Part shown: piece after piece, positions 1-11,850 of the stretch
Layout: each line of letters starts with the position of its first letter
Numbering within the stretch: position 1 is the stretch's first letter
Assembly (NCBI GenBank): GCA_027022065.1
Contig: JALVZS010000005.1
Span: 1 to 11,850 of the forward strand
Direction of reading: 5' to 3'
Length of the DNA stretch: 11,850 nt
Source: a bacterium
GTDB taxonomy: Bacteria > Thermosulfidibacterota > Thermosulfidibacteria > Thermosulfidibacterales > Thermosulfidibacteraceae
The notes under the pieces: generated by a model
The model's database searches: none
Seen by the model: the letters and a program-made list of their open reading frames with translations, nothing else
Told to the model about the DNA's origin: nothing
Position numbers and translations under genes: made by a program

Positions 1-13
1 GCAGCAATTATAG

Positions 14-241
14 TCATTTTGTATAGGATTCAAGCTCCTCAAGCTGTTTTATGTAGGCTTTCCACTCCATATAGTCGTCCCATTGTTCAAAATGCTCTTT
101 GCTTAAAACTTCTTTTTCAAATTCTTGAAAATCTTTGTTATACTTCTTTCTAAACGAATTTATCTTTTGCTCTATAATGTGCTTTTCATAGAGCAGAGCT
201 ATTTCTTCTAGTTCTTTGGCTAGGTTTTTTATACCTACCAT
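14..241 (-). CDS. Small conserved-looking hypothetical protein, antitoxin-like in shape (75 aa)
   Basis: The 75-residue product is highly charged and predicted almost wholly helical, with no membrane segment or signal peptide. Its visible core is an acidic and aromatic stretch near residues 38-65 (DFQEFEKEV, then [13 protein letters not shown]). The ATG at 241-239 is preceded by a good ribosome binding site (AAAGGAG, about 7 bases upstream), so I believe the gene is real. From memory, small helical proteins with a similar F-x-x-W-D-D-Y-x-E-W pattern occur in thermophiles as the antitoxin-like half of two-gene loci, but I cannot confirm the family here. A partner would lie downstream on the reverse strand, beyond the left edge of the window. 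The gene is divergent from the DedA gene, with a 57 bp gap holding a tandem 8 bp repeat. Function unknown. Confidence 0.62.
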
Positions 242-252
242 AAGCTTTCTCC

Positions 253-268
253 TTTACATTTTTACATT
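253..268. repeat. Tandem 8 bp direct repeat in the divergent intergenic region
   Basis: Two perfect adjacent copies of TTTACATT occupy 253-260 and 261-268. On the reverse strand they read AATGTAAA twice, ending just before the AGGAG ribosome binding site of the small gene. On the forward strand the second copy contains TTTACA, one base off a -35 consensus, for the DedA gene. It may be an operator, part of a promoter, or chance in an AT-rich spacer. Confidence 0.45.
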
Positions 269-279
269 CCTTTCCTAAG

Positions 280-285
280 ACTATA
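280..285 (-). promoter_or_regulatory. Possible -10 element for the small reverse-strand gene
   Basis: The reverse strand reads TATAGT here, five of six matches to the sigma-70 -10 consensus, about 39 bases before the start codon. No convincing -35 hexamer lies at 16-18 bp spacing, so the call is weak. Transcription starting near 273 would place the tandem AATGTAAA repeat in the 5' leader. Confidence 0.25.
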
Positions 286-298
286 TCCAAAAGTTGCC

Positions 299-913
299 AT
301 GAAGGGAATAGCTCTGTGGATTGTGTCTAAGGTGGGGAGTTTGGGCTATGCGGGGATATTTTTTCTCATGTTCCTAGAGTCCTCCTTTTTCCCCTTCCCC
401 AGCGAAGTGGTGATGCCCCCGGCGGGTTATCTTGCGGCCAAGGGTAAAATGAACCTTTGGCTGGCCATCTTTGCAGGCTCTGCAGGAAGCCTCGCTGGTG
501 CCCTGTTTAACTACTATCTAGCCATGCTTTTGGGAAGGCCCTTTCTTGAAAGGTACGGGAGGTACCTGCTTGTGGATAGAAAGAAGCTTGCCTGGCTAGA
601 TGGTTTCTTTGAGAGGCACGGGGCCATAAGCACCTTTGTGGGAAGGCTCCTTCCAGGGATAAGGCAGTATATCTCCCTGCCAGCGGGCCTTTCTAGAATG
701 AACGTGCTTGTCTTTTCCATATTCACCTTTGCGGGGGCAGGCATCTGGGTTAGCACCCTTGCCCTTATAGGCTACTTTGTAGGTAAAAACGAGGTCCTTT
801 TAAAAAGGTATATTCATCTTGCGACCCTTGGTGCCCTTGTCTTTTCTGCTCTTTTAATAGCTCTTTACATTAAGCTTAAGAAGAATCTTTTGGATGCTGG
901 AGCCAAGGCGTGA
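299..913 (+). CDS. DedA family (SNARE-associated/VTT domain) inner-membrane protein
   Basis: This 204-residue polytopic membrane protein has the usual length and motifs of the DedA family. Visible are the acidic residue in the first membrane segment ([14 protein letters not shown], residues 25-38), the glycine-rich [18 protein letters not shown] (63-80), and the hallmark F-x-GR-x-x-PG-x-R with the following AG-x-x-x-M (residues 113-134). A hydrophobic C-terminal helix (about 172-190) ends in a basic tail. Some DedA proteins are established transporters or flippases of undecaprenyl phosphate or of phospholipids, and others affect membrane potential and envelope integrity; which role applies here is inferred. 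The ATG at 299 fits the family N-terminus, but no Shine-Dalgarno sequence is visible, so the message may be leaderless. Its stop shares bases with the start of the downstream glycosyltransferase (GTGA), which implies translational coupling. Confidence 0.93.
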
Positions 914-1713
914 TTTCTGCATCTGTGGTTCTTTACCATGGCGATGAGGCCTTTGAGGAACTTCTAAAAAGAGGGGTATTTTCCCGCATCGTTTCGGTTG
1001 TTTATGTGGTGGACAATACCTGCGGGAGGTTTTCGCATCTTGCCCGTTATAAAGAAGTCTTTTACATAAACCCTGGTCGGAATATAGGCTTTGGTAGGGG
1101 CCACAACATAGCCCTGACCAACTCCCTCAAAAAGGGGAAAAGGTACCACCTTCTGCTAAATCCCGATGTCTCTTTTGAGCCTGAGGTCTTGGAAGCCCTG
1201 ATAGACTTTATGGAGGAGAATCCCGATGTGGGCCTTGTGACCCCAAAGGTTTGCTATCCTGATGGATCTCTCCAGTATCACTGCAGGCTGCTTCCCACTC
1301 CTTGGCATCTTTTTGCGAGGAGATTCTTGGGAAAGGACAGGAATGACGAAGTATATGAGCTTCGCTTCACGGGGTATTCCAATGTGATGGATGTTCCCTT
1401 TGTTTTGGCGTGCTTTTGGCTTTTGAGAATCGATGTTTTGAAGAGCGTGGGGCTGTTTGATGAAAGATTTTTCCTTTACATGGAGGATGTGGATCTTTGC
1501 AGGAGGATTTACAGACAGGCCCGGTTGGTTTTCTACCCTCATGTGAAGGCTATTCATGAGCACAGAAGGGGCTCTTACAAGAGCAGAAGGCTCCTTTTCC
1601 ATCACATTGCCTCTGCTGTTAAGTACTTCAACAAGTGGGGGTGGCACAGGGACAAGGAGAGGGATAGAATAAACAGAGAGGTTTTGACTAAATTGGGATT
1701 TTTCAGTCTTTGA
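910..1713 (+). CDS. Family 2 glycosyltransferase, rhamnosyltransferase-like
   Basis: The 267-residue protein is a GT-A fold, GT2-family glycosyltransferase resembling WbbL/RfbF-type rhamnosyltransferases, which add a sugar from a nucleotide donor to a lipid-linked glycan on the cytoplasmic face of the membrane. Evidence in order: the N-terminal nucleotide-binding strand and VVDNT (33-37), [16 protein letters not shown] (54-69) typical of this subgroup, the metal-binding region LLLNPDV (81-87, replacing a strict DxD), the late MEDVDLCRR (191-199) with the likely catalytic acidic pair, and HEHRRGSY (216-223). No membrane segments are evident. The start is GTG at 910, overlapping the DedA stop, with GGAG about 9 bases upstream. 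The 3' end overlaps the convergent thiDN gene by 11 bp. The exact donor and acceptor cannot be told from sequence. No other glycan genes are in view. Confidence 0.9.
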
Positions 1714-3031
1714 ACAAAAGCCTCGCTATCTTTTCTACCTTTTCCACAACATCTAAAGCGCTTCTTCCCAGCACCCTTATCATGGGCTCTTTTCCCACAT
1801 CCCCTTCATCGTAAATGATGTCTGGCACTTTCCCCGCCCTCTTTATGGCAACCTCTGTTCCCCAATCCAGGGTTTTCCCTTCCTTTTTCTTTCTATCTAA
1901 AGGCTCTTCTTTTCTGCTGAACTGGGATATGCAGAAGATCCCGCTTTTTTTGAGCTTTTCAATCCACTCCTTTTTATACTTTATGTTCATGCAGGCCCTT
2001 GCACTTTGGTCAAACTTCATGGCGGTAAGTATTATTCTTGCAACATGGCTTGATGCCCCAAATTCCGGACAGGATAGGGTTGCTACGGTATCCTTGAACC
2101 TCACTATCCTTCCTGGGAAAGCGGCCACATCCTCTATACTTTTTGCACCAGGTATTGCCTCTCCTAGGTTTGATTGCACTTCAGGGATGAGCAGATGCAC
2201 CTTTTTAATGTCCTTAAGTCTATCTAGAGCTCTCTTTAGCCTTTCCAAAACCCTAAACCTTTCCGCATCCACATTTGTCGCCTCAGGCCTTACAGGAACC
2301 AGCCCCCTTCCTACTTTCTCTGCACATTTTAATGCCTCTTCCATGAAGCGCACTGTTTCAAGGTAGGCTTCCTTTAGGTTTCCCAGAGTTATGAGAAAGT
2401 ACAAAAGGGCACTTGAAAAAGCACATCCTGTTCCGTGGGTTCCACCATCAATTGGGATCCTTTCGTGTTCAAAGGGGGTAATATCTTTTTCCACGCACAG
2501 GTAATCCACGCATCTTTCTTCATCCTCATCTCCACCTGTAACAACAACCGCTGCTTTTACCCCTTTTTTTCTGAGTACTTCTACTGCCTTTTGGATATCC
2601 TCCTCGCCTGTGATTGCCAGAAGCTCCCTTCTGTTTGGCGTGATTACATCTGCCCGCTTTAGAAGAGGAAGAAGCTCCTCCATTTCTCCCTCGGTGAGAG
2701 TGCAGCCCGTTGTGGATTTAAGAACAGGATCGTAAACCACAACAGAGCCTTCTGGTATCAGGGACGCCACTGTGGAGGCAAGGGAGGCTTTGCCGAGCAT
2801 TCCTACCTTTACGCCCTGGGGCCTTATGTCCTCAATAACCCTCTCTATCTGCTTTTTTAGTAGCTCTTCCGGAACCTCAAACACATCAAAAACGCCGGTT
2901 GTGTTCTGCACGGTGAGGGCTGTGGGCACGGCCATGCCATAGGCTCCCAAACACGAAAAGATCTTAAGATCCATCTGGATTCCTGCGCCGCCTGAGGGAT
3001 CGGATCCCGCTATGCTCAATAGCTTAACCAT
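1703..3031 (-). CDS. thiDN: Bifunctional HMP/HMP-P kinase (ThiD) fused to ThiN-type thiamine-phosphate synthase
   Basis: This cytoplasmic fusion covers two steps of thiamine synthesis. The ThiD part phosphorylates 4-amino-5-hydroxymethyl-2-methylpyrimidine twice. The ThiN part joins the pyrimidine diphosphate to thiazole phosphate, replacing ThiE. Numbered from the ATG at 3031, the ribokinase-fold half has GSDPSGGAGIQMDLK (9-23), DPVLKSTTG (101-109), TPNRREL and the anion-hole motif with catalytic cysteine GTHGTGC (197-203). After a linker near 255-270 the ThiN half shows IPEVQSNLGEAIPGAKS, FGASSHVAR, RACMNIKY and DWGTEVAIKRAGKVPDI. The ATG at 3031 matches the usual ThiD N-terminus (MVKLLSIAGSD). 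A TTG at 3067 in the same frame would add 12 residues. Neither start has a well-placed ribosome binding site. No TPP riboswitch fits the short leader. It is divergent from the DCCP gene and convergent with the glycosyltransferase. Confidence 0.94.
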   Translation of the reverse strand: MVKLLSIAGSDPSGGAGIQMDLKIFSCLGAYGMAVPTALTVQNTTGVFDVFEVPEELLKKQIERVIEDIRPQGVKVGMLGKASLASTVASLIPEGSVVVYDPVLKSTTGCTLTEGEMEELLPLLKRADVITPNRRELLAITGEEDIQKAVEVLRKKGVKAAVVVTGGDEDEERCVDYLCVEKDITPFEHERIPIDGGTHGTGCAFSSALLYFLITLGNLKEAYLETVRFMEEALKCAEKVGRGLVPVRPEATNVDAERFRVLERLKRALDRLKDIKKVHLLIPEVQSNLGEAIPGAKSIEDVAAFPGRIVRFKDTVATLSCPEFGASSHVARIILTAMKFDQSARACMNIKYKKEWIEKLKKSGIFCISQFSRKEEPLDRKKKEGKTLDWGTEVAIKRAGKVPDIIYDEGDVGKEPMIRVLGRSALDVVEKVEKIARLLFKD

Positions 3032-3082
3032 CGTGGGAGCTATACTACTTATTTCTTTATCCTTCAATCCCCAAGCTCGCTT

Positions 3083-3088
3083 ATTATA
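3083..3088 (-). promoter_or_regulatory. Possible -10 element for thiDN
   Basis: The reverse strand reads a perfect TATAAT at 3088-3083, about 52 bases before the preferred ATG at 3031 and about 16 before the alternative TTG at 3067. No good -35 hexamer is seen at 16-18 bp, only AT-rich sequence. If used, it would place the transcript start near 3076, leaving the TTG nearly leaderless and the ATG with a leader of about 45 bases. Confidence 0.35.
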
Positions 3089-3108
3089 GATTCTTCAAAT
3101 TTGATTTA

Positions 3109-3138
3109 TTGGCATTTTCTTGGTTTTGATCCTAGAAA
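3109..3138 (+). promoter_or_regulatory. Possible sigma-70-type promoter for the DCCP-activator operon
   Basis: TTGGCA at 3109-3114 is one base from the -35 consensus. An 18 bp spacer later, TAGAAA at 3133-3138 matches four of six bases of a -10. It lies in the 125 bp spacer between the divergent thiDN (ATG start) and DCCP genes and is the best forward candidate there. The -10 is poor, so the call is tentative. Confidence 0.28.
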
Positions 3139-3156
3139 AAATAAAAGGGGACGGAG

Positions 3157-4431
3157 ATGGGATACGAGGGGCTTTACAGGGAGCTTGATATGGATGTTGA
3201 GAGGCATCAGGAGCTTATGGATCTGCTTTTTGATGTTTATAAAGAGCTCTTCCTCTCCAGGAAAAACAGGCCTCAAGGCATGGCCTACTTTGACGGTCTC
3301 ATGGCGGAGATCCATGGAAAGAGGATAGAGGAGCTTATGGAAATTAAGAAGCAGGGGAAGCCCCTTGTGGGAACCTTTTGCATATTCGTTCCAGAGGAGA
3401 TTGTGGTGGGGGCAGGGGGTGCCTGCTATGGGCTTTGTGGGGGAGCCCAGTTCTCTATACCCGATGCGGAGACGCACCTTCCCAGAAATATCTGCCCTCT
3501 CATAAAGTCTGCCTATGGGTTTAAGCTTCAGAGGACCTGTCCTTATACCCAGATCTCCGATGTCATATACGGAGAAACCACCTGTGAGGCTAAGAAGAAG
3601 ACGTGGGAGCTTTTGGGTAAGCTCCACAGGGTCTATGTGATGCATATCCCCCATAAAAAGGGGGATGTGGAGAAGGATCTTTGGAGGAGGGAGATAGAGG
3701 GCTTCATGAGGCAGGTGGAGGAACTTAGGGGAAGCCCCATCACCTATGAAGAGCTTAAAAAGGGGATAGAGGTGGTAAATGCCAAAAGGAGGGCAATGAG
3801 GAGGCTTTACAGCTTGAGAAGCGCTAATGATACTGTTCCCATAACCGGACTGGATGCCCTTTTGGTGAATCAGATAGCATTTTACGATGATCCAGAAAGA
3901 TACGCTGCCAAGGTTAATGAGCTTTGCGACGAGCTGGAAGAGAGGATAAATCAGGGCATCTCTGTCTTTCCAAAGGATGCTCCCAGGCTTCTTGTGGCAG
4001 GAACTCCTATGGCTCCTCCCAACTGGAAGCTCCACAGCGTCGCGGAGGAGGCTCAGGCTGCGGTAGTGGCCGAGGAGGCCTGCATAGGTGTTCGCTACTT
4101 TAGGGATGATGTGGATACCGAGGGGTGCGAAACGGTTGGGGATCTCTTAGAAGCTCTCCTTGAAAGATACATGAAAATAGACTGTGCCTGCTTTACTCCC
4201 AACGATGAAAGGGTACAGCACATCTTGGATATGTGCAGAGAGAAGCGGGTAGATGGGGTCATATACTACACCCTTTCCTTCTGCCACACCTACAATGTTG
4301 AGTCAAAAAAGGTGATGGATGCGCTAAAGGCTGAGGGGATTCCTGTTTTGAGGATAGAGACAGACTACTCCATGGAGGATGTGGAACAGATAAGAACAAG
4401 GGTGGAGGCCTTTGTGGAGAGCTTGAGATGA
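3157..4431 (+). CDS. Double-cubane-cluster-type anaerobic reductase (2-hydroxyacyl-CoA dehydratase subunit D / HgdB-like)
   Basis: The 424-residue protein belongs to the HgdB/BcrC/FldC fold family: iron-sulfur enzymes that receive very low potential electrons from an ATP-driven partner. Its single-subunit form next to one activator matches the DCCP proteins, whose characterised member from Carboxydothermus carries an [8Fe-9S] double-cubane cluster and reduces small molecules such as acetylene in vitro; the natural substrate is unknown. It has 13 cysteines. Likely cluster ligands lie in the N-terminal half: C75, C90 and C94 (GACYGLCGG), C113, C128 and C143. The second half has C309, C324, C343, C345, C360 and C376, the last in the family motif [12 protein letters not shown]. 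No CoA-family assignment is possible. GGGG sits 6 bases before the ATG. A second ATG at 3190 has a better AGGGAG, but the longer N-terminus fits remembered relatives. It overlaps the activator gene by ATGA. Confidence 0.88.
3643..3669 (+). repeat. Inverted repeat/hairpin inside the DCCP gene
   Basis: CATATCCCCC at 3643-3652 pairs with GGGGGATGTG at 3660-3669 (one G-U pair) around a seven-base A-rich loop. It encodes the segment around HIPHKKGDV. No T-run follows, so it is not an intrinsic terminator. It may be chance within coding sequence. Confidence 0.5.
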
Positions 4432-5183
4432 GTCTATTTTTGGGAATAGATGCGGGATCAAGCTACATAAAGGTGGTTTGGCTTTCTGGAAACGGTGACA
4501 TAGCTAAGATGGAGCTTTTTCCCACAACGGCAGGCTATGAGGATGCTGTATCAAGGATGCTAGAGGGTGTAAGTAGCTCTGTGGTTACGGGTTACTGCAG
4601 GAGGCGCATATCCAGGCTCTTTGGAATAAAGAGTATAAGTGAGATAAAGGCGCACGCTTTGGGAGCTTACAGGCTCTGTCCCGATGCCAGATTTGTGATA
4701 GATGTGGGAGGGCAGGACAGCAAGGTGATAAGGCTTAACGGGGATGGGGCTTTTTCTGACTTCGTTATGAACGATAGGTGCGCTGCTGGAACGGGCAGGT
4801 TTCTTGAGGTGGTTTCTCAAAGGCTTGGGGTTTCGGTGGACAGGCTTTCGGAGCTTGCCGAAAGGTGCAGGAAGCCTGCCACTATCTCTTCCATGTGTGT
4901 GGTTTTTGCAGAATCCGAGATAGTTTCCCTTTTGGCCCAAGGGGAGCCTGTGGAGTCTATAGCCTATGCGGTTATAGATGCTGTGGCAACGAGGATTGCC
5001 TCCATGGCCAAAGGGTTTGGAGTGGAAAGCAAGGTGGTATTTACGGGTGGAGGGGCCCTTTGTAGTTTCTTGGTCAAAAGAGTGTCAGAAAAGCTTGGCT
5101 TGCCCATCAAGGTGCCACCACATCCTCAGTTTGCAGGGGCCATAGGGGCTGCACTGGAGGCCTCTTTAGTTTTATCCAGCTAG
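4428..5183 (+). CDS. ASKHA-family ATPase activator of the double-cubane reductase (2-hydroxyacyl-CoA dehydratase activase, HgdC/BadF type)
   Basis: The 251-residue protein is the usual length of archerases such as HgdC and DCCR. These are homodimers holding one bridging [4Fe-4S] cluster, which use ATP hydrolysis to push an electron onto the partner enzyme. The sequence shows the phosphate-1 loop [12 protein letters not shown] (6-17), [10 protein letters not shown] (92-101), [12 protein letters not shown] (116-127) with C118, [11 protein letters not shown] (155-165) with C157, the adenosine motif TGGGAL (206-211) and a final AGAIGAAL (236-243). C118 and C157 are the two expected cluster ligands per subunit, and both are present, so it should be competent. 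The start overlaps the upstream stop as ATGA, giving tight coupling and balanced synthesis with the reductase. A ferredoxin or similar donor must be encoded elsewhere. Confidence 0.93.
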
Positions 5184-5190
5184 CATCTAA

Positions 5191-5219
5191 TTGCGAAGCC
5201 TTTTAAAAAGTAGTAAAAG
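5191..5219 (+). promoter_or_regulatory. Possible promoter before the Liv importer genes
   Basis: TTGCGA at 5191-5196 and TAAAAG at 5214-5219 are separated by 17 bp, each matching four of six consensus bases. They lie in the only sizeable gap (72 bp) between the activase gene and the binding-protein gene. The -10 overlaps the left arm of an inverted repeat, as an operator would. Tentative. Confidence 0.3.
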
Positions 5220-5237
5220 CTAAAGTGGATTTTACTA
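5211..5237. repeat. Perfect 8 bp inverted repeat upstream of the binding-protein gene
   Basis: TAGTAAAA at 5211-5218 and TTTTACTA at 5230-5237 are perfect inverted copies around an 11-base spacer, extendable by one G-U and one A-U pair if folded as RNA. It ends five bases before the GAGGAGGTG ribosome binding site. The stem is too AU-rich and lacks a T-tract, so it is not a terminator. A repressor or activator binding site, or a weak leader hairpin, are the alternatives. Confidence 0.5.
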
Positions 5238-5242
5238 TTCTG

Positions 5243-5250
5243 AGGAGGTG
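5243..5250 (+). promoter_or_regulatory. Consensus ribosome binding site of the binding-protein gene
   Basis: AGGAGGTG is a full match to the 16S anti-Shine-Dalgarno sequence, five bases before the ATG at 5256. It is the strongest such site in the window apart from the AGGAGG sites before the small gene and proS, as expected for an abundantly made periplasmic protein. Confidence 0.8.
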
Positions 5251-5255
5251 TAGGG

Positions 5256-6506
5256 ATGAAGAGGTTGGTGGCGTTTTTGGTGGGTGTTAGCTTTTTAATG
5301 CTGGGTTTAACTACCTCCTTTGCTAAGGATAAGATCGTTATTGGCTTTACCATGTCCCAAACCGGTAAGCTCAACGCTGAGTCTGCTGAGCAGTACCGTG
5401 GGCTGCTTCTCTGGCAGAAATGGGTAAACTCCCAGGGCGGTATTTATGTGAAGGCCCTCAAGAAGAAGCTTCCTGTGAAGTTCGTTTACTACGACGATGA
5501 GAGTAGCAAGGATAGGGTGCAGCAGCTTTATGTGAGGCTTATAAGCAAGGATAAGGCGGACTTCCTCATTAGCCCTTACAGCTCTGGTCTTACTGCGTCT
5601 GCTGCGGTTATAGCCGAGCAGTACGGGAAGATCATGATGGCCACAGGCGCCGCATCCGACAGCATATTCAACAAGGGCTACATGCATGTCTTCCAGATCT
5701 ATACCCCTGCAAGCCGCTACCTTACCGGTGCTTTGGATCTCCTCAAGGCCGTGGATCCCAAGGCCAAGAAGGTGGCCATCGTTTACGAGCAGAGCAACTT
5801 TGCCAAGGCAGTTGCCACGGCTGCCAAAAAGTATGCGGAAAAACATGGGTTTAAGGTGGTGCTCTTTGAATCCTATGCCAAGGGAACCACGGATTTCACC
5901 TCTTTCCTCAACAAGATAGCCGCTAAGAGGCCCGATGCTATCATAGGAGGAGGGCACTTTGCCGATGGAGAGACCTTTGCCAGGCAGATATTTGAGCAGA
6001 GGATAAAGGTTAAGCTGGTATCACTCTTGGTGGCTCCTGCTGTGCCCAAGTTTGCTGAAATAGGGAAGGCTGCCCTTTATGTGACCGCTCCTTCCCAGTG
6101 GGAGCCCAAGGCCAAGTACACCGAGGCCTCCGCCAAAAAGCTGGGCATATCCTGGTATGGACCCACCGCTTCTTGGTTTGTGAAGACCTATGAAAAAGAG
6201 TATAAAGAAGCTCCTGGGTATCACGCTGCTGGCGGCTTCATAGCGGGTCTTGTGCTTCAGAAGGCCATAGAGGATGCTGGCTGCCTGGATGCTGAAAAGG
6301 TGAGGAAGGCCCTTGAGAAGATGGACATAATGACCTTCTACGGCAGGATAAAGTTTGAGACTGGTAAGTACTACGGCAGGCAGATAGGGCATGACATGGT
6401 TTATCTCCAGTGGCAGGAGAAGGGCGGTAAGCTTGTGAAGGAGGTGGTCTGGCCTGAGCATGCCGCCTCTGCAAGGCTGGTTTACCCCTACTACAAGAAG
6501 TACTGA
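5256..6506 (+). CDS. Branched-chain-amino-acid-type ABC importer, periplasmic substrate-binding protein (LivK-like)
   Basis: This 416-residue protein is a type I periplasmic binding protein (Peripla_BP_6, HAAT family) that captures a ligand and hands it to the LivHM permease. It opens with a clear Sec signal peptide: basic MKR, hydrophobic core to about residue 19, and likely cleavage after SFA (23). There is no lipobox cysteine, so the mature protein is soluble, which suggests an outer membrane. Mature motifs include IVIGFTMSQTGKLNAES (27-43), LISPYSSGLTASAA (104-117) and ATGAASDSIF (129-138), the last two being strands that usually contact the ligand's amino-acid-like head group. GGGHFADGETFARQ (231-244) and the late GGFIAGLVLQKAIEDAG (326-342) also fit. 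The substrate is not readable: this family takes Leu/Ile/Val, other amino acids, amides, urea, and aromatic or aliphatic acids. It is followed 16 bp later by livH. Confidence 0.92.
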   Translation: MKRLVAFLVGVSFLMLGLTTSFAKDKIVIGFTMSQTGKLNAESAEQYRGLLLWQKWVNSQGGIYVKALKKKLPVKFVYYDDESSKDRVQQLYVRLISKDKADFLISPYSSGLTASAAVIAEQYGKIMMATGAASDSIFNKGYMHVFQIYTPASRYLTGALDLLKAVDPKAKKVAIVYEQSNFAKAVATAAKKYAEKHGFKVVLFESYAKGTTDFTSFLNKIAAKRPDAIIGGGHFADGETFARQIFEQRIKVKLVSLLVAPAVPKFAEIGKAALYVTAPSQWEPKAKYTEASAKKLGISWYGPTASWFVKTYEKEYKEAPGYHAAGGFIAGLVLQKAIEDAGCLDAEKVRKALEKMDIMTFYGRIKFETGKYYGRQIGHDMVYLQWQEKGGKLVKEVVWPEHAASARLVYPYYKKY

Positions 6507-6522
6507 TTGAGAGGGGAGCAAC

Positions 6523-7377
6523 GTGGAGGCGTGGATAAGCGCTGTTTTAAGCGGGATATTGCTTGGACTGGCCTATGGCCTTGCGGCCATAGGCCTTAAT
6601 CTTATTTGGGGCGTTATGAACGTGATAAACCTCTCCCACGGTGCCTTTATAGCCTTAGGCATGTTTGCGTCCTATTTTATTTTTAAGTTTGCGGGCATTT
6701 CCCCCTTCATCTCTGTTTTTCTCGTGCTGGCCGTGGGAGTTGTTTTAGGTATGATAGCCTACTTTTTAGCACTTCACAGGGTTATTCTGGCTCCTGAGCT
6801 TTCAACGCTTCTTGCTACCTACTCTCTGAGTCTCATCATCATAGGGCTCGGAACCTTCTTCTTCACCACCAATCCCAGGGCCATTGATGTGGGCCTTGGT
6901 TCTGTTAAGGTGTTTGGGGCTTACATCCCCAAGGAAAAGATACTGGTGGGTATATATTCACTGATCTTTACCCTGCTTCTGTATCTCTTTCTCTATAAGA
7001 CCTGGACGGGTAAGGCCATAAGGGCCGTTTCCATGAACATAACTGCTGCTAAGTTCATGGGGGTGAACACCACATTTATCCTTTCTCTGGCCTTTGGTAT
7101 AGGTATAGCCTTGGCCATGGTTGCAGGGGCCTTAATAGCATCTGTTTTTCCCTTTACCATACTCACAGGCGGGGTTTATGAGCTTAAGAGCTTCGTTATA
7201 TGCGTTCTAGGCGGTTTGGGAAGTCCTCTGGGTGCCCTTGTGGGTGGGCTTATAATGGGTCTTTTGGAGAATGTTCTCACCTTGAAGATACAGGTAGGGT
7301 ATGTGCCGTTCCTGGAGTTTTTGATCCTTGTGATCATACTGCTTGTGAAACCCACAGGTATAATGGGGAAGGAGTAA
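6523..7377 (+). CDS. livH: Branched-chain-amino-acid-type ABC transporter permease LivH
   Basis: The 284-residue membrane protein has about eight hydrophobic segments and is one of two permeases of the Liv-type importer. The family opening GLNLIWGVMNVINLSHGAF (24-42) is intact, as is the cytoplasmic coupling loop that docks on the ATPases, CVLGGLGSPLGALVGGLIMG (residues 227-246). Length is typical. The start is GTG at 6523 with GGGGAG about 5 bases upstream, 16 bp after the binding-protein stop. A perfect 11 bp GC-rich hairpin lies within its first 25 codons and may set its expression relative to the binding protein. It is followed after four bases by livM. Confidence 0.94.
   Translation: MEAWISAVLSGILLGLAYGLAAIGLNLIWGVMNVINLSHGAFIALGMFASYFIFKFAGISPFISVFLVLAVGVVLGMIAYFLALHRVILAPELSTLLATYSLSLIIIGLGTFFFTTNPRAIDVGLGSVKVFGAYIPKEKILVGIYSLIFTLLLYLFLYKTWTGKAIRAVSMNITAAKFMGVNTTFILSLAFGIGIALAMVAGALIASVFPFTILTGGVYELKSFVICVLGGLGSPLGALVGGLIMGLLENVLTLKIQVGYVPFLEFLILVIILLVKPTGIMGKE
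6570..6595 (+). repeat. Perfect 11 bp GC-rich hairpin at the start of livH
   Basis: GGCCTATGGCC at 6570-6580 and GGCCATAGGCC at 6585-6595 form a perfect stem with a TTGC tetraloop. It is the strongest inverted repeat I found in the window. It covers livH codons 16-25 (LAYGLAAIGL) and begins 64 bases after the stop of the binding-protein gene. The bases after it (TTAATCTTATTT) are U-rich but interrupted, so it is at best a leaky terminator or an mRNA 3'-stabilising structure. Confidence 0.7.
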
Positions 7378-7381
7378 CAGG

Positions 7382-8344
7382 ATGAAGAAAGGATACTCCC
7401 TGTTCTGGTTGATACCTCTTTTGGTGGCCATCTCGGCCTATCCTGTTGTTACCAGGTCCGTGATAGCCAGAGAATCGGTCTTTCTCATTCTGATGTATGT
7501 TACCCTTGCCGCAAGCCTCAACATCATTCTGGGATACACGGGGTATGTAAGCTTTGGTCATATAGTCTTCTACGGGATAGGGGGGTACACGGCCTTTTAC
7601 CTCATGTATAAATTTGGCGTTCACCTCATTCCCGCCATGCTGGCAGGTGGCGTTGCTTCTGCCCTTGTGGCCCTTGCTGTGGGGGAGGCGGTTTTAAGGT
7701 TAAGGGGGGCCATATTTGCCATAGCCACCATAGGGGTGAACGAGGCGATAAAGTCCCTTGTCACGAACTTGGCCTTCCTGGGCGGTGCAACAGGCCTTTT
7801 CTTCAACTTTAAGATATACAGAAGCTACGGCGGTGCTGCTAAGGCCATCTGGTTTGCCTACTATCTCATGGCCGCTGTAACCATAGTAACCGTTGTGGTC
7901 TCCTATTTTATAAAGAACTCCAAGTTCGGCCTGGGCCTGTTCTCCATTAGAGAGGATGAAGATGCTGCTGCCGTTTTGGGAGTGGACACCAAGCGCTTCA
8001 AGAGCTTGGCCTATGCCTTTTCCGCATTCTTTCCAGGTCTTGTGGGGGCCATATTCTTCTTCAAGGCGGGCAACATTGAGCCGGATGATGCCTTCCACCT
8101 CATAAAGTCCATAGAAATGATCTTCATGGTGATGCTTGGAGGATACGGCACCGTTTCTGGCCCTGTCATTGGAGCCGTTATCTACGAAAGGCTGAAAGGG
8201 ATACTTCTGGTTAATCCTCTTTTCAAAAACCTGCACATGGCCATTGCGGGCTTTGTCCTACTTTTGATCGTGCTCTTTGCTCCCGGAGGTATAGTGGGCC
8301 TTTTGAGGGAGAGATTTAAGAAATTAAGAGGTGTGCTGGAATGA
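7382..8344 (+). CDS. livM: Branched-chain-amino-acid-type ABC transporter permease LivM
   Basis: This 320-residue second permease pairs with LivH to form the membrane channel. It has roughly eight to ten hydrophobic segments. The family signatures SLNIILGYTGYVSFGHIVFY (residues 42-61) and the ATPase-coupling loop MVMLGGYGTVSGPVIGAVIY (residues 249-268) are clear, and the conserved internal RGAIFAIATIG segment (near 108-118) is present. The basic C-terminal tail follows a final membrane helix. Start at ATG 7382 with AAGGAG about 7 bases upstream. The stop overlaps the livG start as ATGA, so translation is probably coupled. Confidence 0.94.
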   Translation: MKKGYSLFWLIPLLVAISAYPVVTRSVIARESVFLILMYVTLAASLNIILGYTGYVSFGHIVFYGIGGYTAFYLMYKFGVHLIPAMLAGGVASALVALAVGEAVLRLRGAIFAIATIGVNEAIKSLVTNLAFLGGATGLFFNFKIYRSYGGAAKAIWFAYYLMAAVTIVTVVVSYFIKNSKFGLGLFSIREDEDAAAVLGVDTKRFKSLAYAFSAFFPGLVGAIFFFKAGNIEPDDAFHLIKSIEMIFMVMLGGYGTVSGPVIGAVIYERLKGILLVNPLFKNLHMAIAGFVLLLIVLFAPGGIVGLLRERFKKLRGVLE

Positions 8345-9093
8345 TACTGAGGGCTGAGCATATCACCAAGATGTTCGGTGGTCTTGTGGCTGTGAATGAT
8401 GTCTCCTTTGAGGTTGAGGAGGGGGAGATCTTTGGAGTAATTGGACCCAATGGCGCTGGGAAAACCACGCTTTTCAATGTGATAAGCGGTGTGTATTTTC
8501 CTGAGAAAGGGAAGCTTTACTTCAAGGACAGGGATATAACTCGTCTTCCCTCTTTCAAAAGGGCTAGGCTGGGCATAGCGAGAACGCATCAGATAGTTAA
8601 GCCTCTTAACGAACTTACGGTGCTGGAGAATGTGATGGTTGGTGCCTGCTTTGGAAAAACCTTTGCCAACCTAAAAGAGGCGGAAAAGATCGCCTGGGAG
8701 GTTTTGGAGACGGTGGGTCTTTCCGATAAGGCAGATGTGCTTGCGGGAAAGCTCAATGTCCCTCAGAAGAAGAGGCTGGAGCTTGCAAGGGCTCTTGCTT
8801 CAAAGCCAGAGCTTATACTGCTTGACGAGGTGCTGGCGGGACTGAACCCATCAGAGGTTTCCGAGATGCTGAAGGTTATAATGAAGATAAAGGAGCAGGG
8901 GATAACCATCCTCATGATAGAGCACCTCATGCATGCCATAATGAAGGTTTCAGATAGGATAATGGTGCTGGACTATGGAAGCAAAATCGCCGAGGGCACA
9001 CCTGAGGAGGTGGCCAACAACGAAAGGGTTATAGAGGCTTACCTGGGCAATCCCGAGCTTGCCCTTAAGCTGCTTAAGGAGGGGAAGGCCTGA
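8341..9093 (+). CDS. livG: Branched-chain-amino-acid-type ABC transporter ATP-binding protein LivG (degenerate signature motif)
   Basis: The 250-residue protein is one of two cytoplasmic ATPases of the importer. Walker A is GPNGAGKTT (35-43), the Q-loop glutamine is Q84 in ARTHQIV, Walker B is LILLDE (158-163) and the switch histidine is H195 in MIEHLMH. The LivG-type C-terminal extension (AYLGNPELALKLL) is present. Two positions are unusual. The ABC signature reads LNVPQKKRLE (138-147) rather than LSGGQ or the common LivG LSYGQQRRLE, losing the serine and both glycines. Walker B is followed by V instead of P (LDEVLAGLNP). From memory, an LDEVxAGL subfamily of LivG proteins with altered signature motifs exists, so this is probably a lineage trait rather than decay. 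One of the two ATP sites should be non-canonical. Coupled to livM (ATGA) and livF (TGATG). Confidence 0.94.
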   Translation: MILRAEHITKMFGGLVAVNDVSFEVEEGEIFGVIGPNGAGKTTLFNVISGVYFPEKGKLYFKDRDITRLPSFKRARLGIARTHQIVKPLNELTVLENVMVGACFGKTFANLKEAEKIAWEVLETVGLSDKADVLAGKLNVPQKKRLELARALASKPELILLDEVLAGLNPSEVSEMLKVIMKIKEQGITILMIEHLMHAIMKVSDRIMVLDYGSKIAEGTPEEVANNERVIEAYLGNPELALKLLKEGKA

Positions 9094-9809
9094 TGTCAGA
9101 TGTGGTGCTGAAGGTGGAGGATCTTGAGACTGGGTATGGTGAGGTTCAGATACTCTGGGGTGTTAGCCTTGAGGCCAAAAAGGGGAAGCTCACCACCATA
9201 ATAGGCTCCAACGGCTCTGGCAAAACCACCCTTCTCAGGGCCATAACGGGAGTGGTCCCTGTCTGGAAGGGAAGGGTCCTGTTTAAGGGGGAGGACATAA
9301 CCCATCTTCCCGCCCATAGACGCGCCGACATGGGCCTTGTGATGGTTCCTGAAGGAAGGATGCTTTTCCCAGAAATGACGGTTTACGAAAATCTGGAGAT
9401 GGGGGCCTACACCAAAAGGGCGAGGGCGAAGCTCAAGGAGAGCTTGGACTTTGTTCTGAACCTCTTTCCCCGGCTTAAGGAGAGGCTGAACCAGAAGGCG
9501 GGCACCATGTCCGGCGGTGAGCAGCAGATGGTTGCCCTGGGAAGGGGGCTTATGGCGTGTCCAGAGCTTCTTATACTGGATGAGCCTAGCCTGGGTCTTG
9601 CCCCAAAGCTTGTTCTGGATGTCTTCAGCGTTATAAAGAAGCTGAAGGATGAAGGCATAACCATGCTACTTGTGGAGCAGAACGTCCACATCTCTTTAAT
9701 GATCACCGACTGGGCCTATGTTATGGCTGAAGGGCGCATAGTTATGGAGGGCTCTGGGGAGGAGCTTGAGAAGAGCGAAGAGGTGAAGAAAGCCTATCTT
9801 GGCGTCTGA
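9093..9809 (+). CDS. livF: Branched-chain-amino-acid-type ABC transporter ATP-binding protein LivF
   Basis: The 238-residue protein is the second ATPase of the importer and carries a canonical signature motif. Visible are Walker A GSNGSGKTT (38-46), VPEGRMLFPEMTV (85-97, with E in place of the Q-loop glutamine, normal for LivF), MSGGEQQMVALGRGL (139-153), Walker B LLILDEPSLGL (159-169) and LLVEQNV (192-198), where Q replaces the usual switch histidine, also a LivF trait. In the LivG-LivF dimer its intact signature would face the LivG Walker A, while the degenerate LivG signature faces the LivF Walker A. Start ATG at 9093 shares a base with the livG stop. Its last 11 bases overlap the TTG start of mutL. 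Confidence 0.95.
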   Translation: MSDVVLKVEDLETGYGEVQILWGVSLEAKKGKLTTIIGSNGSGKTTLLRAITGVVPVWKGRVLFKGEDITHLPAHRRADMGLVMVPEGRMLFPEMTVYENLEMGAYTKRARAKLKESLDFVLNLFPRLKERLNQKAGTMSGGEQQMVALGRGLMACPELLILDEPSLGLAPKLVLDVFSVIKKLKDEGITMLLVEQNVHISLMITDWAYVMAEGRIVMEGSGEELEKSEEVKKAYLGV

Positions 9810-11376
9810 TCCGAAAATAAAGAGACTTCCTCCCTCTGTGGTAAGAAGGATAGCGGCAGGGGAGGTTGTTGAAAGGCCTGCCTCTGTGCTGAAGGAGCTG
9901 ATAGAAAACTCCATTGATGCCGCTTCAACAAGGATAGAGGCCTCTATTAAAGACGGCGGAAAAAGTCTTGTAGAGGTCTGGGACAACGGCGTGGGTATGA
10001 CGGAGGAGGAAGCACTTCTTGCCGTTGAGAGGCACACCACGAGCAAGATATCCTCTGAAAAGGATCTAGAAAGCATAGAGACCCTGGGCTTTAGGGGGGA
10101 GGCTCTTTACGCTATATCTTCTGTCTCCATGTTCCAGCTTATCACAAAGGCAAAGGGGGAAGAGCTTGCTACGAGGCTTGAGATTGAGGGGGGCGTTTTC
10201 AAGGGCGTATCCAAGTACTTCAGGGATGTTTCCGGCACCACGGTGGCTGTGAAAAACCTCTTCTTTAATCTAAGGGCAAGAAGAAGATTTCTCCGCTCAA
10301 AAAGGGTGGAGCAGCAGCACACAAGAAGGATCTTCCTTGAATATGCGATGGCCTATCCGGAGATTGAGTTTCGCTATCTTGAGGAGGGGGAGTTGATCTT
10401 CCATTTTAGGCCATCTTCTCTTGAAAAGCGGGTGGAAGACGCAAGGGGTGCCTCAATAAAAGATGTCTTGGAAGGGGATTGGGTGAGGTTATTTTTGATT
10501 GATGATAAAAAGGGGGAAATGTTCCTCTATGTGAACAGAAGAGCCGTCTTTGACAGGGCCCTCTCCCAGCACATAAAGGGACTTCTCAGGCAGAGGTTCA
10601 TATCCTCAGAGCTTCCCACAGCTATTGTATTTATAGATGTGCCTTTCAAGGATGTGGATGTAAATGTGCACCCCACAAAGAGAGAGGTGAGGTTCAGAGA
10701 TCCTTCCCGCATACATGAGGATATAGAGCGAATGTTTTCCCCCTCTCATGGCGTTGTTCTTCCCTCTGAGAAGGTGCCTGAAACTGACTTTTCCCTGGCC
10801 CAGCCTGCCTTTAGCTATACCGCCCAGACTGCTTTTGATGTTGTGAAGGAGCCTAAATTCAGGTTTTTGGGTGAGCTGGATAGAACCTACCTGCTTTTTG
10901 AAGAGGGCGGTTCCCTAATAATGGTGGACAAGCACGCCCTTCACGAAAGGCTTTTGTTTGAAAGGATAATAGAAAGAAAGACAAAGGCGGTTGCCTCGTG
11001 GATACCCTTTGAGAATGTGGAGCTTCTTGAGCAGTGGGGAAGTTTCTTAAAGCAGTTGGGCTTTGAGGTGGATGCAGAAAACGGTGTGATAACGGCCGTT
11101 CCAGAGTGGGCCTTGGGAATAGAGGAAAGGGTTTTGGGATCTGTTCTGGATGCCCTAAAGGATGGGGAGCCCAAGAGCCTATCCTATGAAGAGCTTGCCA
11201 GAATTGCGTGCAGGGCCGCCGTAAAGGCAGGCGACAGAAGCACAGCCCTTGATGCCCAGTTTGTTGCCAACATCCTAGAAGAGAGGGGTCTTGGCTTAAC
11301 TTGTCCCCATGGGAGACCTGTGGTAGTGAAGTTGGATAAGGGGTATATAGAGCGCCTGTTTAAAAGGAGGCAGTGA
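9799..11376 (+). CDS. mutL: DNA mismatch repair protein MutL, endonuclease-type
   Basis: MutL couples MutS mismatch recognition to strand removal. The 525-residue product has the full GHKL ATPase: KELIENSIDA (32-41, with E33 and N37 matching catalytic E29 and Mg-binding N33 of E. coli), DNGVGM (62-67), HTTSKI (79-84), GFRGEALYAISSV (97-109), GTTVAVKNLFFN (146-157), and the lysine in HPTKREVRF (291-299). The C-terminal domain carries the metal-binding endonuclease set: DKHALHERLLFE (377-388, the DQHA-x2-E-x4-E motif with K for Q), ACR (470-472) and CPHGRP (502-507). It should therefore nick DNA, as expected where MutH is absent. The linker is short (about 315-350), giving a smaller protein than E. 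coli MutL. The start is a TTG inside livF; an in-frame stop at 9784 and the conserved KRLPP N-terminus leave no better choice. Confidence 0.96.
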   Translation: MASDPKIKRLPPSVVRRIAAGEVVERPASVLKELIENSIDAASTRIEASIKDGGKSLVEVWDNGVGMTEEEALLAVERHTTSKISSEKDLESIETLGFRGEALYAISSVSMFQLITKAKGEELATRLEIEGGVFKGVSKYFRDVSGTTVAVKNLFFNLRARRRFLRSKRVEQQHTRRIFLEYAMAYPEIEFRYLEEGELIFHFRPSSLEKRVEDARGASIKDVLEGDWVRLFLIDDKKGEMFLYVNRRAVFDRALSQHIKGLLRQRFISSELPTAIVFIDVPFKDVDVNVHPTKREVRFRDPSRIHEDIERMFSPSHGVVLPSEKVPETDFSLAQPAFSYTAQTAFDVVKEPKFRFLGELDRTYLLFEEGGSLIMVDKHALHERLLFERIIERKTKAVASWIPFENVELLEQWGSFLKQLGFEVDAENGVITAVPEWALGIEERVLGSVLDALKDGEPKSLSYEELARIACRAAVKAGDRSTALDAQFVANILEERGLGLTCPHGRPVVVKLDKGYIERLFKRRQ

Positions 11377-11618
11377 TGCCAGGAAGCGAGCTTTTAAAGG
11401 AAACATTAAATATGTACTCTGAAATTTCCCTTATATACGTGGTGAACGCCTGCAAGCACATTGTAAGCCAGGGCATTCCTGACAACCTTGAGGAGATAAT
11501 GGACAGGGTGGAGAAGCTGAAGTCCCTTGGGGATCTGGTAAGCAAGGCCCTTGAGGCCATGTACACTGCGGAAGAGATGGATATGAGGGACTTTGGAGAT
11601 TACGACGAAGGCCTTTAG
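11376..11618 (+). CDS. Small acidic hypothetical protein between mutL and proS (80 aa)
   Basis: I do not recognise this family. The 80-residue product is predicted mostly helical: a first amphipathic helix around LKETLNMYSEISLIYVVNACKH, a GIPDN turn, then two charged helices that could form a small bundle, and an acidic tail (DMRDFGDYDEGL). It has one cysteine (C26) and no membrane segment, signal or known motif. The start is likely ATG at 11376, which shares a base with the mutL stop (TGATG) and has AGGAGG five bases upstream. GTG at 11373 is in frame but too close to that site. AGGAGG for proS overlaps its own stop. Perfect signals on both sides argue that it is a translated gene in the mutL-proS transcript. 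Confidence 0.8.
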   Translation: MPGSELLKETLNMYSEISLIYVVNACKHIVSQGIPDNLEEIMDRVEKLKSLGDLVSKALEAMYTAEEMDMRDFGDYDEGL

Positions 11619-11627
11619 GAGGTTGGC

Positions 11628-11850
11628 ATGAGGCTTTCTAGATATTACATGCCCACGCTGAAGGAGAAGCCTGCCGAGGCGGAAACCCCCAGCCATCAGT
11701 ACCTCTTGAGGGCTGGGATGGTGAGAAAGCTTGCCGCAGGTATCTACTCCTTTCTACCTTTGGGATGGAGAACGGTAAAGAAAATCATAGAGATAGTGCG
11801 GGAAGAGATGGATAGAGCAGGGGCTTTAGAGGTGTTTCTTCCCGTGGTTC
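11628..11850 (+). CDS. proS: Prolyl-tRNA synthetase (ProS, bacterial type), 5' part only
   Basis: The first 74 codons are present; the gene runs off the right edge. ProS is the class II enzyme that charges tRNA-Pro with proline. The visible N-terminus has the bacterial-type ProS opening ([19 protein letters not shown]), then [20 protein letters not shown] (22-41) and [12 protein letters not shown] (42-53), with [15 protein letters not shown] (58-72), which contains the class II motif 1 region. AGGAGG (11617-11622) lies five bases before the ATG and overlaps the stop of the small upstream gene. Whether the full protein has the editing (INS) domain cannot be judged from this part. Confidence 0.95.

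Follow-up and report, generated by a model that had tools for sequence, protein, structure and literature searches.

The window analysed here is a stretch of 11,850 nucleotides (positions 1 to 11,850, forward strand, of contig JALVZS010000005.1) from GCA_027022065.1, the genome of a bacterium of the Thermosulfidibacteraceae. At positions 3157-5183 it carries two genes on the plus strand. The first (3157..4431) encodes DCCP, a double-cubane-cluster protein of 424 amino acids, which is predicted to be the [8Fe-9S] carrier and catalytic subunit. The second (4428..5183) encodes DCCPR, an archerase-type ATPase of the acyl-CoA dehydratase activase family with 251 amino acids, predicted to form a [4Fe-4S] homodimer and to drive electrons into DCCP. 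The TGA stop codon of DCCP (4429-4431) and the ATG start codon of DCCPR (4428-4430) share the sequence ATGA (4428..4431, plus strand), and translational coupling of the two ORFs is predicted from this overlap. A spacing of -4 to +2 nt, i.e., an overlap or a short gap, is the rule for DCCP and the activase in the relatives. The first-pass annotation had described an HgdB-type protein with 13 cysteines fused to an archerase by the ATGA overlap. The large protein and its cysteine count, exactly 13, were confirmed, and the overlap is present; the two are overlapping genes, however, and not a fused gene. A scan for promoters and terminators gave no signal above chance.

The genes around the pair in the window are of several kinds. 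A UptA/DedA-like membrane protein, a glycosyltransferase and, on the minus strand, a ThiD-ThiN fusion lie on the 5' side, and the five genes of a Liv-type ABC transporter (binding protein, two permeases and two ATPases; 5256..9809, plus strand), which begin 72 nt after the pair, lie with mutL on the 3' side. The ThiD-ThiN fusion (1703-3067, minus strand) is a bacterial case of a fusion that is associated mainly with archaea, its thiamine-phosphate synthase being of the ThiN type.

Both proteins of the pair matched their families far beyond chance. The Pfam matches were HGD-D for the large protein (1e-123) and BcrAD_BadFG for the small one (6e-50). The window's DCCP scored 483 bits (5.5e-145) with the NCBIfam equivalog model NF040772 for the double-cubane-cluster-containing anaerobic reductase, for which the cut-off is 350. 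The scores with the models of other members of the superfamily were far under the cut-offs, i.e., 130 bits against 700 for HadC, 84 against 454 for BzdN and 77 against 421 for BcrC, and the BzdO model gave the same outcome. The best PDB matches of the large protein were 7yyl and 6eno, the DCCP from Carboxydothermus (E about 1e-148, residues 5-423). The small protein scored 239 bits with TIGR00241 (cut-off 125), and its PDB matches were 4eht, 1hux and 7yyl_E, the last of which is the DCCP reductase. In the maximum-likelihood tree, the window's DCCP and that of Carboxydothermus fell in one clade with 98% support, and a branch with 100% support separated BzdN, HadC and MbdN from the DCCP clade. 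The window contains a single HGD-D subunit, and neither the two unlike subunits of a 2-hydroxyacyl-CoA dehydratase nor the BcrABCD or BzdNOPQ set of a class I benzoyl-CoA reductase above the cut-offs was found.

The pair is most similar to the DCCP/DCCPR system of Carboxydothermus hydrogenoformans (6eno, 7yyl; NF040772), with which it shares the full-length alignment, the clade, the six candidate ligand cysteines described below and the adjacent archerase. The window's DCCP is located on another sub-branch, however, near the DCCPs of the Campylobacterota type, and its nearest relatives are MAG sequences with 66-73% identity. As judged from these comparisons, the pair is a complete DCCP/DCCPR system of a known family.

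The cluster ligands were predicted from an alignment of 82 DCCPs with the solved DCCP, BzdN, HadC and MbdN, in which no structure coordinates were used. Exactly six cysteines of the window's DCCP recur in both the solved DCCP and BzdN, namely C75 (3379..3381), C113 (3493..3495), C143 (3583..3585), C309 (4081..4083), C345 (4189..4191) and C376 (4282..4284), all encoded on the plus strand. Five of them occur without exception (82/82 DCCP loci); the sixth, C345, occurs in 78/82, and the four loci without it retain C343. HadC retains just four of the six; C113, C143 and C376 are found in HadC and in MbdN, and HadC has no equivalents of C75 and C309. BzdN, the [8Fe-9S] cluster of which has been structurally solved (PDB 8s02; PMC11971306), thus has the same six cysteines, but differs in that its substrate is a CoA ester and its functional form a heterodimer with BzdO, and no BzdO-like partner adjoins the window's DCCP. 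HadBC, the 2-hydroxyisocaproyl-CoA dehydratase (PDB 3o3m), shares the fold family and the archerase principle with the pair. Three further cysteines, C94 (82/82), C343 (82/82) and C128 (80/82), are fully or almost fully conserved in the DCCPs and absent from BzdN, and are therefore probably not cluster ligands; they are possible substrate or redox residues. In the activase, the predicted [4Fe-4S] ligands are C118 (4779..4781, plus strand), in the motif NDRCAAGTG, and C157 (4896..4898, plus strand), in a segment of 11 residues. Both are aligned with the solved archerases, in agreement with the earlier description of an archerase with both cluster cysteines. The proposal that the pair belongs to the DCCP/DCCR group was supported by the NF040772 score, the tree and the six cysteines alike; it had been open to refutation by a tree position among the dehydratase or benzoyl-CoA reductase subunits or by missing double-cubane ligands, and it withstood both checks because the window's DCCP groups with that of Carboxydothermus and all six cysteines are present in the alignment.

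Two variants of the pair were seen among the relatives. In genome G018, the match to a close DCCP relative (L114, 7823-10236) ends at residue 389, and a transposase/integrase-like ORF occupies the expected position of the activase; this pair looks as if it was broken by an insertion. In some genomes, DCCP and the activase stand in tandem with a shorter paralogue of DCCP that lacks the N-terminal extension (L067:12174-13319, L096:12099-13286, L091:8532-9707 and L093:12432-13646). These short paralogues form a sister clade with 95% support, and the L067 copy passes NF040772 with 518 bits.

The gene neighbourhoods of DCCP were compared using 80 related loci from genome contigs together with relatives from whole genomes, in which ORFs were called and the proteins clustered. 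The counts refer to 82 DCCP loci, which were found by similarity to the window's DCCP. The activase, directly next to DCCP in 68/82 loci, was the only constant partner. With the activase, the paralogue-rich ABC ATPases and UppP set aside, the most widespread neighbours were YedF (13 loci), SelB (8) and SelD (8, one of which is a ThiL-like false member). When the loci were collapsed at 68% identity into 14 lineages, the leaders behind the activase and these ATPases were SelB and YedF (6 lineages each), followed by formate dehydrogenase alpha and SelD (4 each). At least one of SelA, SelB, SelD and YedF was present in 19/82 loci, which are spread over 15 separate clades of the tree; the other 63 had no selenium gene in the flanks examined. 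The clearest extended cluster of selenium genes and DCCP was L067, with the order YedE, Se/S carrier (DUF3343), kinase-like protein, DCCP, FmdE-like protein, short DCCP, activase, tRNA, SelB, SelD, YedF and Sec-lyase-like protein. In L060, a near relative of the window's locus, yedF lies immediately upstream of the DCCP pair on the same strand.

Some of the clustered neighbours were rejected. UppP (cluster c5) was discarded as a partner, being confined to one group of loci that are mostly Sulfurospirillum-like, the SelD match in L116 was ThiL-like (77 bits), and cluster c13 was an ORF-calling artefact made up of antisense ORFs of low complexity.

Because the neighbourhood loci had been picked by their similarity to the window, the counts were repeated on whole genomes. 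With kinship ignored, DCCP is linked to YedF and SelD, and co-occurs with them, across the family. Among 118 genomes of the phylum of Desulforhabdus, DCCP was over the cut-off in 45 and present as a fragment in one more, giving 46 positive genomes; SelD was found in 111/118 and YedF in 79/118. SelD was located within 5 kb of DCCP in 11/46 positive genomes, as compared with 0.21 expected from the genome sizes (P about 1e-15), and YedF in 12/46, as compared with 0.18 (P about 2e-18). One or the other was within this distance in 17/46, with about 0.2 expected for each gene. Merging of related genomes lowers these figures, but 8 independent SelD linkages would still give P about 1e-10. YedF was present in 43/46 DCCP-positive and 36/72 DCCP-negative genomes (p=3e-7, kinship ignored). 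Co-occurrence with SelD has no power in this phylum, because 111/118 of its genomes have SelD; three DCCP-positive genomes of this phylum (G190, G194 and G195) are without it. Among the relatives of the window's organism, SelD was detected in 9/9 DCCP-positive and 25/51 DCCP-negative genomes (p=0.004, kinship ignored). SelD was over the cut-off in 34/36 genomes of the DCCP loci. Of 14 named control genomes, only those of E. coli and M. jannaschii contained DCCP over the NF040772 cut-off, and the same two alone had SelD over the cut-off. The E. coli match is presumably YjiM, so that YjiM/YjiL would be the counterpart of the window's pair in that organism.

The genome to which the window belongs has its own selenium genes. 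Contig C27 carries a Sec-lyase-like gene, YedF and SelD in this order, and contig C124 carries SelA, SelB and LysR_Sec. The SelD gene (L124:4102-5205) has an in-frame TGA and would itself be a selenoprotein, and in the second locus (L141:5887-10026) selA-selB is followed by the selenium-type LysR. The organism is, to judge from this gene content, a user of selenium and selenocysteine. No convincing gene for tRNA-Sec was found in the genome, a MAG with 88% completeness, and we attribute this to the incompleteness of the MAG. The pair, on contig C5, is not linked to the selenium genes on C27 and C124, and SelD was near DCCP in 0/9 DCCP-positive genomes of the relatives set, which represents the window's order. 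DCCP is absent from the related genomes G005 and G006, in which SelD and YedF are present. The selenium metabolism of E. coli has long been studied, and we know of no role for YjiML in it. From the lack of linkage in the window's order, the two genomes without DCCP and the E. coli record, any selenium role of DCCP/DCCPR would be at most accessory, and not essential, to selenocysteine synthesis.

The Carboxydothermus enzyme is known from the literature to carry out ATP-driven electron transfer into a double-cubane [8Fe-9S] cluster. In the working model, the archerase homodimer of the window would carry one [4Fe-4S] cluster, ligated by C118 and C157 from each subunit, and would accept an electron from a ferredoxin-type donor. 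Driven by ATP, this electron would enter, at very low potential, the [8Fe-9S] double cubane that is held in the DCCP homodimer by C75, C113, C143, C309, C345 and C376, and a small substrate would be reduced there. Since DCCP genes elsewhere are both linked to yedF, selD and selB and found together with them, and since the host uses selenocysteine, we infer that this substrate may be a selenium (or Se/S) species, which would be reduced, or set free, as selenide to feed the YedF/SelD route. Selenide-supply chemistry is plausible for such an enzyme on two grounds. The reduction of elemental or polymeric selenium to selenide requires a very low potential. In addition, TudS, a related one-domain enzyme, provides an analogy, as its [4Fe-5S] cluster is the site at which 4-thiouridine monophosphate is desulfurised (PMC11971306).

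We consider the chances evenly balanced that DCCP/DCCPR has a selenium-related role of some kind, which is the most likely of the readings considered. The more specific reading that we propose, in which DCCP/DCCPR is an ATP-driven selenium-mobilising reductase that hands selenide to YedF for SelD, has a probability of roughly 0.3. Within it, the selenium source would tentatively be a recalcitrant one, such as elemental or polymeric selenium, a selenoether or another selenium compound, and the double cubane would be where it is reduced or stripped of its selenium.

The idea of a selenium function for DCCP is already in print: a 2023 preprint provisionally tied DCCP/DCCPR to selenium metabolism, inside mlp gene clusters (PMC10418091). 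Earlier, Lin et al. (2015), in the portion of that study available to us, tabulated an HgdB-like gene and an activase from Slackia among selenium-associated genes and did not put them forward as selenium genes (PMC5322559). The association of DCCP with SelD resembles that of the accessory genes of the selenium trait, namely YedE, YedF, DUF3343, Sec lyase and LysR_Se (PMC5322559). In the literature examined, no report of a selenium reaction by any DCCP was found. The present analysis contributes linkage counts that are set against a null expectation, points to YedF specifically, and dissociates the pair from the Liv transporter. The first-pass annotation had called the physiological reaction unknown; this agrees with a paper of 2025, which still calls the biological function of DCCPs unknown (PMC11971306), but the comparative-genomic lead to selenium had not been noticed in that annotation.

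Very few enzymes, DCCP among them, have a large nitrogenase-like iron-sulfur cluster; if the proposed reading is true, selenium would be the natural target of a nitrogenase-like low-potential enzyme. The association with yedF, selD and selB across several phyla narrows the "unknown substrate" to a short list of selenium tests, which are feasible in culturable organisms amenable to gene deletion, such as E. coli (yjiML) and Sulfurospirillum. The interest lies in this quantified and testable lead to the reaction of the family, and less in the window's copy itself.

The foremost alternative is that DCCP/DCCPR reduces a small molecule other than selenium, such as a CO-, acetylene-, azide- or hydrazine-like substrate or a sulfur compound, and that the proximity to selenium genes merely mirrors an anaerobic lifestyle and shared regulation. 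DCCP acts in vitro on acetylene, azide and hydrazine (PMC11971306), and its homologues in C. maritimus change with CO (PMC7306483). The many loci without a selenium gene in the flanks and the near-universal presence of SelD in the phylum of Desulforhabdus are also in accord with this explanation. However, physical linkage is not predicted by an anaerobic lifestyle, and the linked fraction in that phylum is far above the expectation; furthermore, YedF follows DCCP even where SelD is almost universal. We regard this alternative as possible, and hold it with reserve.

The pair could also serve the maturation or repair of selenoenzymes, for example formate dehydrogenase, rather than the supply of selenium. 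Formate dehydrogenase alpha is near DCCP in 5 loci (4 lineages), and YedF/FdhU is tied to the biogenesis of the Campylobacter formate dehydrogenase (PMC5322559). In addition, a ygfI mutant of E. coli shows joint changes of yjiM, yjiL and the hyc/hyp genes (PMC9068703), but these could reflect general anaerobic regulation. Formate dehydrogenase occurs in fewer loci than YedF, SelB or SelD, and the selenoenzyme explanation is unlikely.

It is very improbable that the substrate of the pair is brought in by the downstream Liv-type transporter, which is encoded on the same strand after the short gap, because none of the other DCCP loci examined, including the close relatives L033 and L115-L117, has homologues of the binding protein and permeases, and the matches of the binding protein are only to generic binders of branched-chain amino acids or amides; the transporter was discarded as a functional partner for this lack of conservation.

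A dehydratase-type locus is present elsewhere in the genome. Contig C116 (L113, 4756-8772) carries, behind an acyl-CoA ligase, neighbouring genes for two HGD-D subunits that most resemble HadC and HadB and are thus HadBC-like, and this locus is, by its gene content, a separate CoA-ester dehydratase or reductase system. The earlier remark that a second dehydratase subunit, a CoA transferase and an acyl-CoA dehydrogenase are all missing nearby was correct for the window, yet this classical system exists on another contig; since it sits there separately, the window's pair is no stray part of a dehydratase operon. No activase was found on the examined part of contig C116, and the superfamily (Pfam HGD-D) is shared, but the idea that the pair is a subunit of 2-hydroxyacyl-CoA dehydratase or benzoyl-CoA reductase with its activator, or that the activator serves the HadBC-like pair, is highly unlikely, because the HadC, BcrC, BzdN and BzdO cut-offs were all missed by far, the tree and cysteine pattern are of the DCCP type and the C116 pair is a system of its own; the subunit identity was ruled out by the model scores, cysteine pattern and tree, and the window's activase could conceivably also act on the C116 pair.

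Six of the DCCP loci contained, near the pair, a tRNA-Sec-like gene of 90-97 nt with a GCA anticodon, which corresponds to cysteine codons (L067:14078-14169, L065:2307-2398, L078:12149-12238, L080:4329-4425 on the minus strand, L083:15962-16051 and L088:9678-9768 on the minus strand). In 5/6 of these loci selB is located beside the tRNA gene. The canonical tRNA-Sec(UCA) was also present in 5/6 of the genomes, and in several of them another SelB passes the family cut-off at a different place. The recoding of cysteine codons to selenocysteine is known in Aeromonas (reviewed in PMC10778597). This combination of genes suggests a second selenocysteine set reading UGU/UGC in the genomes with the GCA tRNA, and the two sets side by side look worth studying.
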